From Anaerotignum sp. (GTDB taxonomy: Bacteria > Bacillota > Clostridia > Lachnospirales > Anaerotignaceae), in assembly GCA_017523325.1 (NCBI GenBank), contig JAFWWO010000046.1:1-64000 (forward strand): 64,000 bases of DNA, given 5' to 3'. Of the stretch, positions 27,913-55,271 are shown piece by piece. Below the pieces are notes generated by a model that saw only the letters and a program-made list of their open reading frames with translations, ran no database searches and had not been told where the DNA came from. The translations under genes were made by a program, and so were the position numbers. The first letter of the stretch is position 1; the number at the start of each line of letters is the position of its first letter.

Positions 27913-30573
27913 TTACTGTATACCAAAGTTATGCTCGCTCCAATCATCATCGGAAATTGGCGTATCTGTCCCGATAGGCGTTTCTGTCTGATCGGAGGGT
28001 GTCGTATTCCCGGTTTGGGCAGGTGTATCATCCAGCGGATTTTCCCGAACAATATGATCCGATGTACAAGTCGTACTCACATCAATATCCAGCTTCCCTT
28101 CGCCGCCTTCCGGCTTTCCAAGGATTTTTCCATCGCTGCCAACAGCCAGAACCACATCCATTTTATAGCTCTCCGGACAATTGGCCGACGCCAGCTTACC
28201 GGAGTGTTTACAAATGGTATAGGATTTATGCAGATCGCATATACCGGTATCTCCCTTGAAATCAGCGGCTGCAATATCTGAATGTAATCCATGTCCATAA
28301 TAATCCTGTCCGCATAGCCCGGTTGCCGTTTTTCCGGATACCCCACAGAAGGAAACATTTACAAGTCCCTCCGGTTTCTCAAATTTCTTATTCGCCAGCC
28401 CTTTATTCTGATGAATTTGGGACATGACGGTTCTCCAAATTTTCAGGTGAGCATTCCCGCTCCCTTTGATTTCTTTGGCTGTATCATATCCCATCCAGAT
28501 ACCGCCTGTGTAATACGGAGTGTAACCGTAGAAGGTCAAATCCTTTGTATCATTGGTCGTACCTGTTTTGCCGGCAACGGTCATTCCACTGATTGCTGCC
28601 TGCGTACCGGTGCCTTTTGTGATAACGTCCCGCATCATATCCGTCAGCATATAAGCTGTGGTTTCTTTCAGAACACGATGGGTTTCTGCCTGGTTGTTAT
28701 CCAACAAGACATTTCCATCATGGTCATAGATTACCGTATAATACACCGGTTGATGATATACACCACCATTGGCAATAGAAGCATAAGCCGCCGTTTCCTC
28801 CAGTACGGAAACACCTTGCGTCAAGCCTCCCAGTGCCACTGCACCCCCTTTATCGTTATCTGTAAGGGTTGTAAAACCGAATTTTTGCAAATACTCAAAA
28901 GAAACATCTGCCCCTACCATCATAAACGTCTTAACCGCCAATACGTTCATGGAGTGCCAGATACCCTTACGGACAGTCGTCGGTCCCGCAAACCTACCGT
29001 CCCAGTTTTTGGGTGCCCAACTACCATATTTCACCGGTTCATCGATAATAATGGAACCCGGCATCAGAAGGCCTGTATCAATAGCGGGTGCATAGGCAGC
29101 CAAGGGCTTAAATGTGGAGCCCTGCTGACGCAATGCTTGTGTTGCCCGGTTGAACACAGAATCCCCCGGCTTTTCGCCCCGACCGCCAACCAATGCCTTT
29201 ACTTCACCATTTTGCTGATCCATAATCACCATTGCCGCCTGTAAAGACTTTGAAATTGTAACTTTATCCAGTACAAGGGTATGGGTATCATCCAAAAGCT
29301 CTGCTTTCACGGACTCTACAAAGGCGTCCGCCTCACTCTGATTTCGCACCGTGGTCCGTTTTTCATAATGCGTTTGGTTTGTGTTTTCGTCGGGATTTGT
29401 GGTATCCAGAACAGAGATTAAATAAATCACATCCAGCATACCATCACCCGACGGGAATAAGCTATCGTTTTTCAGTGCCGTCTCTGTAATTTTTTGCATA
29501 TCAGAGTCCATTGTCAGATGAATTTGCAGGCCACCGCTATATATCTTATTGTACGCCTGTGCTTTTGTGAAGGATTTCTGCTCCATCAAATCCTTAGCAA
29601 TTTGGTCAATGGCGGCTTCTACGAAATAATTGTGTTTTGCATTGCCCTCTTCCTCATAGGAATTTTTGCAAACCAAATGACCGAATACATCTTCCGCCGC
29701 AGCCAAATCATATTCCTCTTGGGTAATAAAGCCCAATTCCTGCATTTTTTTCAAAACCGTAAGCTGTCGCTTCCGACTCTCTTCCGGATTGGCATCAGGT
29801 GCATACAGACTGGGATTTTTGGTAATGCCGGCAATACAAGCACATTCCGCAAGCGTCAATTCACTGGCATGCTTGCCAAAATAATAGAGGGCCGCTGTTT
29901 CCACACCACGCAGACCATGATGCAAGCTGATGGTATTTAAGTACAATTCCAAAACATATTTTTTGGCCTCTTCCTTCGTACCCAACTGCTTTCTTAAGGC
30001 TTTTTCCAAAGAAACAGCCAGATATTGTTCTTTGATTTTTCGTTCCAATTTTTTTTCGTTACCCAAAAGTTCGTTTTTTATCACCTGTTGGGTAATGGTG
30101 CTGGCACCTTGGGAAAAATGAAAACTTTTAACGTTTTCAAAAACTGCTCTTGCAATTCCCCGCATATCAATGCCGTTATGCTCATAAAAGCGTTCGTCCT
30201 CTATGGCAACGACTACATTCTGCATATTTTTTGTAGTAGCGGAAAGCTTTACATATTCCCGGTTTTCCGCTCCATGGAGCTTGTCTATCTCGTTCCCGTC
30301 TGCATCATACAAAACGGAGGTATAGGATTCCGGCAAAATATCAGCAGTATTAAGCATTTCCGTACTTTGCAGGATACCGAAAACCGTACCCAACCCTGCT
30401 CCTGCCACAGCAAAAGCAACAATCACGCATACAATAAGCAACGCCTTACCAATTTTGCTCGCAAAGGATTTCCCTCTGCGTCTTGGCCGCCGTTTTCTAT
30501 GGGTGTTATGCGTAGCCTTCCTACCGGTATGTGACCGATTGGAGGAGCATCTCCTGTTTTGCGATTGATTCAT
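27913..30573 (-). CDS. Class A penicillin-binding protein (PBP1A family)
   Basis: A bifunctional peptidoglycan synthase of 886 residues. A cytoplasmic tail very rich in Arg and Lys (about 1-40) precedes one membrane segment (LLIVCVIVAFAVAGAGLG). Then come a GT51 glycosyltransferase domain (EDERFYEHNG near 123, with QGASTITQQVIKN) and a transpeptidase domain with QQGSTFKPL (active Ser near 484), SMN (about 540) and GKTGTTND (about 668). The last 60 residues are low-complexity Thr/Pro/Asp. The start at 30573 follows a GGGGGAC site; a frame start at 30603 or 30612 lacks one and sits in a leader hairpin. It is preceded by a structured leader of about 290 nt with its own promoter. Confidence 0.95.
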   Translation of the reverse strand: MNQSQNRRCSSNRSHTGRKATHNTHRKRRPRRRGKSFASKIGKALLIVCVIVAFAVAGAGLGTVFGILQSTEMLNTADILPESYTSVLYDADGNEIDKLHGAENREYVKLSATTKNMQNVVVAIEDERFYEHNGIDMRGIARAVFENVKSFHFSQGASTITQQVIKNELLGNEKKLERKIKEQYLAVSLEKALRKQLGTKEEAKKYVLELYLNTISLHHGLRGVETAALYYFGKHASELTLAECACIAGITKNPSLYAPDANPEESRKRQLTVLKKMQELGFITQEEYDLAAAEDVFGHLVCKNSYEEEGNAKHNYFVEAAIDQIAKDLMEQKSFTKAQAYNKIYSGGLQIHLTMDSDMQKITETALKNDSLFPSGDGMLDVIYLISVLDTTNPDENTNQTHYEKRTTVRNQSEADAFVESVKAELLDDTHTLVLDKVTISKSLQAAMVIMDQQNGEVKALVGGRGEKPGDSVFNRATQALRQQGSTFKPLAAYAPAIDTGLLMPGSIIIDEPVKYGSWAPKNWDGRFAGPTTVRKGIWHSMNVLAVKTFMMVGADVSFEYLQKFGFTTLTDNDKGGAVALGGLTQGVSVLEETAAYASIANGGVYHQPVYYTVIYDHDGNVLLDNNQAETHRVLKETTAYMLTDMMRDVITKGTGTQAAISGMTVAGKTGTTNDTKDLTFYGYTPYYTGGIWMGYDTAKEIKGSGNAHLKIWRTVMSQIHQNKGLANKKFEKPEGLVNVSFCGVSGKTATGLCGQDYYGHGLHSDIAAADFKGDTGICDLHKSYTICKHSGKLASANCPESYKMDVVLAVGSDGKILGKPEGGEGKLDIDVSTTCTSDHIVRENPLDDTPAQTGNTTPSDQTETPIGTDTPISDDDWSEHNFGIQ

Positions 30574-30863
30574 TACTGTTCGTCCCCCTTTTTCACGGTT
30601 CATTGCGTACACAATGTCTCCGCTGTAGCCTATCGCAAAGCTACTTTATCATGGGCTTGCGCCCTATGTACATCTATTCCGAAATGCGCTTGTGTTCCAT
30701 ACCCTATCTTCCTCTTGACGCTTCTTCTGCCGTGCGACATTCGCAGCCTTCGGCTGCTCATCACGGGCTTTCGCCCTATGGGCAGATATGCGTAAACTAC
30801 CCGCCGTTTGCAAGCAACCGGCTGTCTGTTTACACATATCTGCCCGCACGGCTTATTGCTAAC
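30574..30863 (-). ncRNA. Structured leader RNA upstream of the PBP gene
   Basis: The sequence between the promoter (30870-30897) and the PBP start folds strongly when read on the minus strand. (a) 18-nt arms at 30828-30845 and 30780-30797 pair completely with a single G-U, enclosing a 30-nt loop. (b) GGGC-GAAA-GCCC (30765-30776) is a tetraloop hairpin. (c) GCAGCC-GAA-GGCTGC (30743-30757). (d) A second similar pair follows: GGGC-GCAA-GCCC (30653-30664), then GTAGC/GCTAC (30625-30644). (e) CATTG/CAATG (30601-30616) lies near the gene. Segments b-c and d share the order CATAGGGCGnAAGCCC-rTGATrA-hairpin, so the leader contains a tandem of related modules. I do not recognise it as a known riboswitch. 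Short frames here are explained by the structure. Confidence 0.6.
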
Positions 30864-30869
30864 GTGAAC

Positions 30870-30897
30870 ATTATACCAGAAATTGCTCATGTGTAAA
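30870..30897 (-). promoter_or_regulatory. Sigma-A promoter of the PBP leader
   Basis: TTTACA (30892-30897), 16 nt, perfect TATAAT (30870-30875) on the minus strand. Transcription would start near 30863 and enter the structured leader almost at once. Confidence 0.7.
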
Positions 30898-30951
30898 AGG
30901 GATTTTCTTTAGACAATCTTACATATTTTATAAGATTTTCAAATTTCCCTG

Positions 30952-35582: not shown

Positions 35583-35682
35583 AGCGCACCTCCTATTGGT
35601 TTGTCCTCCGCATCTTCCCGCAGGAAACCGATTCCATCGGCACCAAACCTACGGCAACAAATGCGTGTGTTATGATTTATAC
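35583..35682 (-). promoter_or_regulatory. Structured rpsB leader
   Basis: About 100 nt between the start site and rpsB fold into an outer stem CCGTAGG/CCTGCGG (35648-35654 with 35618-35624) closing an inner hairpin CCGAT-GGA-ATCGG (35628-35640). GGTTTG (35644-35649) can instead pair with CAAACC (35598-35603), which lies next to the ribosome binding site. Such alternatives are typical of ribosomal protein autoregulatory leaders; binding by S2 is an inference. Confidence 0.45.
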
Positions 35683-35688
35683 CAAATT

Positions 35689-38800: not shown

Positions 38801-41800
38801 TCATCCAAGCCTTTGAAAAGTGTTTTATTGTACTCCCATGTTGCTTTCCATGTGCCATCAGTACCTACTGCAACCGCCTGAGCGGGCAGAGCAAGTTCGC
38901 CCATTTCAAACAGCACTTCTACTTGCATTCCGCTGTAAACTTCTGTTGTTGTACCTTCGATTACAATATCCTTTTCATCCAGGACTGCATCGATTACCAT
39001 GTCATCATCTGCGGAAGTCTTTGTGATTTCCACTGCGATTGCAGGGTCATACTTCACATCGATGGAAAGAGGCACTTCAGATTCTTTGCCTGCTTTATCC
39101 ACTTCTGCTACTTTGATTTCGGAACCATAGGTAATGTAGCTATCCTTATCAAATTCAGGCAGAGTGATTATCCACTGGTTTGCTTTTGCTTCGTCGTCGC
39201 TTACTACCGGTTCTACTGTAACGCCTGTAAGTTCTACATCGTTTACATAAACCTTAGCGGTTGCTGCATAGCCGCCCATTTTTACTGTAATTTCTTTCGT
39301 TCTGTTGGTCACTTCCGTAGGTTCTACCAATTCGGGTGTACCGGGCAGTTCTTCAACCACTTCTACTGTAATCTCAGCAGACAAATCTGCATAAGCGGGA
39401 TCTGCATAAGAGATCTTCACTGTATATACACCATTTTCCAGCGTTGCCATAGAACCAAACAAATCGCTTACCTTTACAGTCTGTTCTGTTTTATCAACAC
39501 CTTCAAAATGCACTTCATTACCTTCAGGTGTTGTTACTGTTGCTTTCAGAGGCAGAATGGTATCATCTGCTTCTGTTACAGTGTACTTGAATTCAGATGC
39601 ATTTTTGCGATAAATAAACTGTTCTTCAGGTGTTGCCTTAATCTGTGCAACATCTTCTCTCTTCAATACCTTTGCCGTAATGGGTGCAGACTCATTACCT
39701 GCCAAATCGGTGATAGTAACTTCGATAGGTGTATCTACAAAATATTTGTCGATCTCAAACTCTACTTCGCCGTCAAAATTGTCATCTTTCACTGCTTCGT
39801 AAGTCTTATCGCCGATTTTCAGTACAACTGTTGCGCCTTCATCGCCTTCAGCCAGTGTCAGAGTTACCTTTGTGGTATTATCGAAAATCTGATCCAAGCC
39901 TCCAATTTCAGTCGGCGCTTTTGTATCCACAACGATAACTTTCGTTGCTGTCAGCTCAAGTTCCTCATCTTGATATGCAGGATCTGCATATTCTACTTTG
40001 ATGGTGTATTCGCCACCTTGGTAGATCCCACCAGCTATGCCATATTCATTAGCCTTAATTGTGAAGTCCTTATCAGCAACGGCATCTTTTACCTTTTTAT
40101 CTCCTACCCAAACGTTTACCTTTGCATCTTCTTCATATGTCGCTGTAAACGTCAGTTCTGTGTTAACTTTTGTGTAAGCCTTGCCGGTAAGAGTGTTTAC
40201 ACCGTAAGATTCAGGTGTTGTTATCTCAATCGGCGCCACTTTGCTGGGTTTCACTTTATTACCTGTGAATTCTTTGCTATTGCCTGCCAAATCGGTTACA
40301 ACAGCAGTAATTTCTGTACCAACGGGATGTTTTTCAATATCAAACTCTACCACGCCGTCAAAATCGTCATCTTTCACTGCTTCGTAAGTCTTGTCGCCGA
40401 TTGTCAGTGTAACTGTTGCGCCATAATCGCCTTCATCCAGTGTCAATGTTACCTTTCCGGCAACATCATAGATTTCATCCAGACCTGCGATGTTTTCAGG
40501 TGCTGTTAAATCCACAACAATAATTACTTCCGCCGCCAGTTCCTCATATGCAGATTCTACATATTCCACTTTAACGGTATGCTCACCTGCATCAAAGGAT
40601 GCTTTGTCGAAAGCACTGGCAGGAACTGTGATAACAGTTTTGCCTTCCTCATCTACTGCTATCTGCAGGCCATCGTCCTTTACTTCCTTGCCGTCTACAA
40701 GCACCTTGATTTGTCTGCTTGTTTCGTAGTCTACTTCAAATGTAAATTTTCCTTTTACGTTAGTATAGAATATGTTTGTATCGTCATATTGAGCCGCATC
40801 AACAGGTGTAATAGTAATTTCTTTCACTTCGCCGGGCAATACTTCATAGTCTTCGCCTTCATCATTGACAGTGAATGTCGTGCTATTGCCTGCTAAATCG
40901 GTTACTGTAACGCTCACTTTTGTGCCGGCAGGATATGTTTTGCCAAAAGCAAAAGTTACCTTGCCGTCAAAATCATCATCTACTCCAGTAAATGTATCAA
41001 ATGTATCTGTATCTTCTTCGCCGATTGTCAGTTTAACTGTTGCACCCTCATCGCCTGCATTCAGTTCCAGAGTTGCGCTTTCGGAGGTATTCACGATGGT
41101 ATCCAGACCGCCGATGGACGCAGGTGCTGTCATATCCAGCACAATCGTCAAAGTAGCTTTTTGTGTGTAAGCAGAATCAGCATATGTCACTGTTGCAACA
41201 TATGTTCCTTCCTCAAATCCGGCTGAGCCATAGATGCTGCAAGGAATTTCAACAGTAGGTCCGCTTGTAACGCCGGGAACCTCTTCTATATTTCCGTATG
41301 CATCCGTCAATTCTACTTTTATTTCCTTGCCTTCTGCATGTGTTACATCAAAAACAAATTCGTTCTTATTGTTGGTGTATACCACACCGTCTTTATCTTT
41401 ACCGTACTCTTCCTTCGGTGTGATTTGAATGTCATCAATCTCACCAACTTCAACCATAAATTCGCACTCAGCAGTTTTACCGGTATAAACATTTAACACT
41501 TTAACTGTTGCTTTACCGGCTCTGCCTGATACATAATCCAGAGGTACTTTCCACTTGCCGTCAGCGCCAACCTCAGTTGTTTCTTCGCCTCCATCTGCAA
41601 ATGTAACGGTAATTTCACCGTCAATATCGCCGGAAGTACCGGTAACCGCAGCACCGTCTATATCCATGTAAAATGTGTCCTCATCGGTTTTTACATCTGC
41701 TGTATTCTTTACAACCATTTTAACGGAGGTGAAAGCTTCTATGAAACCATCATATGTTACGGTTACATCATACTCACCGTCTGCTGCGAATGTTACATCA

Positions 41801-55024: not shown

Positions 55025-55130
55025 ATTGCTTCCTCCTATCGGGTAATATTTCCTTACATGAAAAATGTATCGCCATAACACATTCATAAACAGTCAACCT
55101 TATACAAGCATCTCCGCCAAACTCTCTGAC

Positions 55131-55175
55131 CACCGTACAAATTCGCAGCGTTCCCGCTGCTCATCACGGGCTTTT
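55131..55175 (-). ncRNA. Second copy of the structured leader element
   Basis: On the minus strand the leader carries AAGCCCGTGATGA, the hairpin GCAGCG-GGAA-CGCTGC (55160-55145) and GAATTTGTACGG. The same arrangement occurs in the PBP leader (30729-30770) with hairpin GCAGCC-GAA-GGCTGC and GAATGTCGCACGG. The two copies swap a C-G pair for G-C in the inner stem. In the outer stem, CCGTG pairs with TACGG here and with CACGG there. The flanks GTGATGA and GAAT are identical. No open frame is shared in meaning, and the element sits directly after a promoter in both places. Confidence 0.6.
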
Positions 55176-55187
55176 GCTTTCCTAAAC

Positions 55188-55216
55188 AGTATAACACAGT
55201 GCTTCCTTTTCTTCAA
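55188..55216 (-). promoter_or_regulatory. Sigma-A promoter of the YdcZ pair
   Basis: TTGAAG (55211-55216), 17 nt, TATACT (55188-55193) on the minus strand. The expected start is near 55181, just upstream of the conserved hairpin element. Confidence 0.65.
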
Positions 55217-55271
55217 CGTTTCCGCCTTTCCATAAGCACCTAACCGGAATCTCTCCCCTTCATTGACAAAA

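Follow-up and report, generated by a model that had tools for sequence, protein, structure and literature searches.

Why should the gene for a class A penicillin-binding protein (PBP) of an Anaerotignum species be preceded by a long, highly structured leader, and is that leader a switch belonging to this gene? The question was raised by a sequence-only reading of the DNA analysed here, a stretch of 64 000 nucleotides (the window), which described a clear promoter followed on the minus strand by about 290 nt running up to the PBP start codon at 30573. Much of that description holds. The promoter is indeed a good one (TTTACA-16-TATAAT with TG before the -10 box, an 11/12 match, 30897-30870 on the minus strand). 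The leader of 289 nt folds at -110.9 kcal/mol, as against -79.3 ± 4.8 for shuffled sequences (z = -6.64; none of 200 shuffles was equal), and the stems that had been named are all present: the 18-bp lower part of P2, GGGC-GAAA-GCCC, GGGC-GCAA-GCCC, GCAGCC/GGCTGC, GTAGC/GCTAC and CATTG/CAATG. The duplication of a module, also claimed, is real, since a covariance model built from copies that include those of relatives matches 30726-30879 with 143.9 bits and, separately, 30619-30714 with 19.3 bits (E = 5e-4). By contrast, the idea of two mutually exclusive folds finds no support in the energies: the CCGTG/CACGG alternative reaches only -68.1 against -74.5 kcal/mol, i.e. it is 6.4 kcal/mol worse, and its pair probability is about 0. 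There is no terminator in the leader on the minus strand. The features are collected in Table 1.

Table 1. Features of the PBP leader, its host gene and a second copy of the element in the window
Feature	Position	Strand	Remarks
-35 hexamer TTTACA of host promoter	30892..30897	-	region upstream of -10 varies between copies
Extended -10 TGG-TATAAT	30870..30875	-	ancestral: TGTTATAAT or similar here in element-free orthologs
Unit 1: 5' segment GTTCACGTTAGCAATAA and four-way junction	30729..30869	-	copies at C33 (91% identical) and elsewhere; model match of 143.9 bits
P1 5' strand GCCGTGCG	30845..30852	-	pairs with 30729-30736; G-C to C-G swap in C54 copy (GCCCTGCG/CGCAGGGC)
P2 long hairpin, GCUUGC apical loop	30780..30844	-	sequence differs among copies, pairing kept
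P3 hairpin GGGC-GAAA-GCCC, conserved CATA directly before	30765..30776	-	from alignments of copies
P4 ATGAG...CGAAT closing GCAGCC-GAA-GGCTGC	30739..30761	-	also in relatives and in Clostridiales-1
P1 3' strand CGCACGGC	30729..30736	-	pairs with 30845-30852
Unit 2, diverged P3-P4 repeat: GGGC-GCAA-GCCC, ATGATAA, GTAGC/GCTAC; closed by GTACATA/TGTGTAC	30607..30671	-	model match at 30619-30714
Ribosome-binding site AAGGGGG	30584..30590	-	shared with element-free orthologs G001 and G004
Class A penicillin-binding protein gene	27913..30573	-	PF00912 Transgly and PF00905 Transpeptidase
Second, shortened copy (P4 module without P2/P3)	55129..55227	-	24.1 bits, E = 1.6e-5; follows promoter-like site TGTTATACT

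An Rfam scan of the leader returned no family at cut-off, in agreement with the remark that no known riboswitch could be recognised. A hammerhead ribozyme was considered and rejected: the match is below threshold (21.8 versus 37 bits), GUGAUGAG...CGAAU is without C3 and A15.1, and the UGAG/CGAA likeness is accounted for by a tandem G.A helix. Two other features of the window may be recorded. A t44 RNA (RF00127) match of 46.2 bits, for a cut-off of 44 bits, lies at 35599-35687 (minus strand) directly upstream of the rpsB gene (S2), and the region 39694-41145 contains repeated DNA of coding scale, with 245-nt and 128-nt copies at intervals of about 585-624 nt, probably as a result of gene duplication.

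The leader, at 30870-30590 on the minus strand, is not a single-copy sequence, a point that the sequence-only reading had missed. When it was compared by BLAST with the window's own draft genome (G000; 1.66 Mb, 80% complete), 23 matches were found across many contigs; the same search in 59 relatives gave none at E 1e-3. About 27 copies were examined in G000, that of the PBP leader included, and the shortened copy at 55129-55227 of the window lies upstream of a transporter-like gene. The copies have in common a four-way-junction RNA made of an outer helix P1, a long hairpin P2 capped by GCUUGC, a GGGC-GNNA-GCCC hairpin and an AUGAG/CGAAU helix, in the order P1, P2, CAUA, P3, P4, P1'; the AUGAG...CGAAU part of P4 is possibly a helix with tandem sheared G.A pairs. 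P1 reads GCCGUGCG/CGCACGGC in the window and GCAGUGCG/CGCACUGC in relatives, and many copies carry extra tandem P3-P4-P1' units. At one locus represented in two species (L035 and L047), the upstream flanks are near-identical and the P2 sequences differ. Six G000 copies (L026, L029, L033, L085, L091 and L093) share a 3' tail, CCATCGAAACGGCAGTCGAGATGGTATACT, which ends in a -10-like box and could be an outward promoter.

Copies at different loci show strong conservation of pairing. In an alignment of ten G000 copies, both sides have changed in 19 of the 44 pairs (score 0.330, versus 0.146 after shuffling and at most 0.071 after sliding). With relatives added, this rises to 38 of 44 pairs, 90% of the cells being paired, and the score to 0.565 (0.168 shuffled, at most 0.117 slid); the larger alignment was fitted to the structure, the first was not. 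For P2, pairs changed on both sides number 16 out of 26 in G000 alone and 26 out of 26 with relatives. Paired columns contain 13 G.U mismatches versus 2 A.C, counted per alignment column, an excess that would follow from selection on the sense RNA and not on the DNA. We rely on this count and not on that from aligned P2 arms of this form of the element (63 G.U versus 36 A.C), which holds one recurrent A.C mismatch per copy. The model made from the ten copies finds 45 matches in G000, antisense matches to the palindromic P2 included; in five further species of the genus it detects diverged copies. According to a broader model, the RNA is present in 60 of 295 genomes and 33 of the 129 sampled genera of the order, where copy numbers are lower bounds, about 10 candidates having been scored per genome; the best new matches adopt the same four-way junction. 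A search of 84,980 species genomes with the exact G000-type pattern gave 0 matches, and a looser pattern led to six Lachnospiraceae contigs.

Is the element an old component of the PBP leader, or did it arrive later? Each of the nine genomes sampled from the genus has the PBP gene, with the same divergent neighbour where readable. The PBP leaders of the eight relatives contain no such element, the promoter box being followed by a short leader (that of G005 was read less completely). Thus, the place that reads TTTCTGTTATAAT-AACTTGAATAAGGGGG in G004 reads TTTCTGGTATAAT-[element]-GTGAAAAAGGGGG in the window. The same situation is met at fbp (read in G003 and G008) and pth, where relatives are element-free and the element lies directly 3' of the ancestral -10 box; G007 has, judged by eye, an element-like sequence near pth at another place. 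Comparison with these element-free orthologs demonstrates, at three loci, an insertion just 3' of an existing -10 box. Orthologous PBP leaders show no conserved pairing, the outcome that the sequence-only reading had itself named as a refutation, so specificity for the PBP gene fails. What stands of the earlier claim is that a class A PBP gene has a structured RNA in its leader; that it is a leader or switch specific to PBP does not, as the readable orthologous leaders are without the element and it precedes other genes as well.

The closest known RNA is Clostridiales-1 (RF01699), described by Weinberg et al. (2010) as a structured RNA and listed neither as cis-regulatory nor as a switch (PMC2864571); Rfam classes it as a small RNA gene. 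The two have the same outer P1, the same adjoining long P2 capped by GCUUGC and the same AUGAG...CGAAU helix, and they resemble each other in size, in being multicopy, in their tandem units, in their sense position before unrelated genes and in their occurrence in Lachnospirales. They differ in that Clostridiales-1 has a 3' hairpin, GGAUUG..GGGAG..CGGAG..CAAUCC, after the UGAG helix; it is absent from the form described here (hereafter the variant), which has instead GGGC-GNNA-GCCC between P2 and the AUGAG helix. In the Rfam scan the window leader did not match RF01699, even up to E 5, and relatives of the variant score 39.3, 32.0 and 31.4 bits against it, all below the gathering cut-off of 48 bits. 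Each of the other eight genomes of the genus has canonical RF01699 copies; the single weak match in G000 (31.6 bits) is also a variant copy. The models of the variant and of RF01699 detect each other poorly. Scores below the cut-off, a third hairpin that differs in kind and in place, and poor reverse detection together suggest that the variant is a sister form of Clostridiales-1 rather than a member.

This relationship matters for the question of mobility. In two related genomes, G287 and G261, the RF01699 copies are near-identical, dispersed and bounded by terminal inverted repeats; they start with TGACGTAAGGGTCAAAAG and end with CACCTACCTCA (TTAGTACCTCA in one without the 3' hairpin). All 17 complete copies are flanked by exact direct repeats, of 5 bp in 14 cases and 6 bp in 3, while shuffled flanks gave 3.3 and 0.2 on average, respectively. 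Each genome contains the ends about 80 times, in many cases at a distance of 190 bp, the left one being the 5' strand of P1 and the right one lying, in the 190-bp form, after the added 3' hairpin. The Clostridiales-1 copies of G287 and G261 are MITEs, a connection for which we found no paper in the open-licence literature. Similar ends with direct repeats were seen by eye in G137 and G284. A 248-bp form with an extra hairpin in the UGAG arm occurs at L212 and L213 of G287, at L213 beside a 39-bp internal-deletion derivative. The Clostridiales-1 MITE has targets of the TNATA type, similar to TATAATA, and this likeness could account for insertions at -10 boxes. No target duplication is definable for the copies of the variant in G000, so that mobility of the variant rests on dispersal, on empty orthologous sites and on relatedness; like MITEs, these copies are dispersed, multicopy, short and non-coding. 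As to the source of transposase, the 18 regions of G287 and G261 with lone ends revealed truncated copies only and no autonomous transposon. Mobilisation by Y1/RAYT is not supported, because Y1_Tnp is present in 4 of the 9 genomes of the genus and the elements in all 9.

The genes that follow the RNA are unrelated: besides the PBP gene, identified by Pfam, they include uppP, an fbp-like phosphatase gene, pth, tmk, polA, pheS, thrS, rimP, V-ATPase and RNase J genes, named mostly by inspection of the protein sequence. With genes called by a codon-usage model, the downstream gene is in sense for 37 of 41 variant copies and 25 of 28 Clostridiales-1 copies. Diverged copies in co-directional gaps are sense in 41 cases and antisense in 4 (binomial p = 9e-9), against 4 and 4 for the young Clostridiales-1 copies of G287 and G261 (Fisher p = 0.013); these p-values are inflated, since the copies are related, some of them orthologous, and hence not independent, and the young and diverged copies come from different lineages. 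Many canonical Clostridiales-1 copies start about 20 nt or less after the upstream stop codon, e.g. before rplL and the gene for the V-ATPase catalytic subunit. Some copies are associated with T-boxes: at L037 (G003) and L038 (G002) a copy at about 1501-1650 precedes an O-acetylhomoserine-type sulfhydrylase gene and lies within an apparent T-box leader, with GGTACCGCGG downstream, and further copies come after the T-box terminators of pheS and thrS.

What, then, does the PBP leader represent? A riboswitch or attenuator controlling the PBP gene would account for the 5' UTR position, the strong structure and the tandem modules. We nevertheless regard such a PBP-specific device as very unlikely, given the orthologous leaders that do without it, the unrelated genes and lack of a single pathway downstream of the other copies, the missing terminator and the cost of the alternative fold. 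Another possibility is a multicopy trans-acting small RNA that possesses its own conserved -10 box and is read through, or is processed from leaders. A -10 box does precede most G000 copies, some copies are situated after terminators or at 3' ends, and Clostridiales-1 is filed as a small RNA gene. But at PBP, fbp and pth this box is that of the host gene and older than the element, the unit in the window leader is not followed by a terminator, and many Clostridiales-1 copies sit inside operons, directly after a stop codon; we therefore hold this explanation to be improbable.

A serious rival, though in our opinion a less likely one, is a purely selfish MITE, the hairpins of which serve transposition, as DNA or single-stranded DNA, without any function of the RNA. 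Leader position and sense bias would then follow from an AT-rich, -10-like target and from the removal of harmful insertions by purifying selection. In DNA, too, GNA triloops and tandem G.A pairs are very stable, and this fits such a view, as do the MITE structure of Clostridiales-1 with its TATAATA-like targets, the deletion derivatives and the amplification of tandem units. There is also a precedent in the BOX elements of pneumococcus, which have been judged parasitic (PMC3049150). Three observations argue the other way: the sense bias of diverged co-directional copies as compared with the young ones, the excess of G.U over A.C mismatches, and compensatory change maintained in the long term over 33 genera.

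We favour, with a probability of roughly 0.6, the explanation that the PBP leader is a mobile structured RNA element, inserted 3' of a -10 box and retained as a generic mRNA leader. It consists of one copy plus a diverged second unit of a dispersed RNA element, sister group to Clostridiales-1, in a superfamily that spreads as MITE-like elements, as seen for Clostridiales-1 in G287 and G261 and as we infer for the variant. One copy landed just 3' of the PBP -10 box in the lineage of the window, as the element-free orthologs show, and its RNA would by that position become the 5' part of the PBP mRNA. The element would act on the mRNA independently of the gene: with a P2 duplex of the 25-bp class and a four-way junction, the 5' end of the transcript would be protected or would undergo processing, and no ligand would be sensed. 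RNase III would be a natural candidate for such processing, by analogy with transcribed Correia elements, which can be cut by this enzyme (MITE review PMC10969869).

We conclude that the leader is no PBP switch; it belongs to a dispersed, insertion-prone element found in front of dozens of unrelated genes of gut Lachnospirales, within their leaders. More tentatively, one may speculate that a transposable element with a conserved RNA cargo seeds housekeeping leaders and intercistronic gaps across Lachnospirales, and that sense copies are kept as modules of control at the mRNA level, so that a MITE builds a genome-wide post-transcriptional network. If this were true, one post-transcriptional system would comprise Clostridiales-1 and the new form as its two classes. 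Clostridiales-1, an orphan Rfam RNA of no known function, is now seen to travel on a mobile element, and the covariance model defines a second class, not yet annotated and similar in reach. An origin and a mode of action, both open to testing, can thus be proposed for many of the long structured leaders in gut Clostridia; such leaders are easily misread as gene-specific switches.

Other dispersed elements offer partial parallels. The Correia repeats of Neisseria are also MITEs located upstream of genes, but they differ in having their own promoters and IHF sites, and they are not known to share a sequence or a four-way junction with the present element. The BOX elements of Streptococcus pneumoniae are similar in design: they are modular dispersed repeats with a variable number of internal modules, structured if transcribed, and have MITE-type ends (PMC3049150). 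Their orientation differs, however, since BOX elements show a genome strand bias only (61% on the leading strand) and are enriched between convergent genes (PMC3049150), whereas the element described here lies in sense to the downstream gene.
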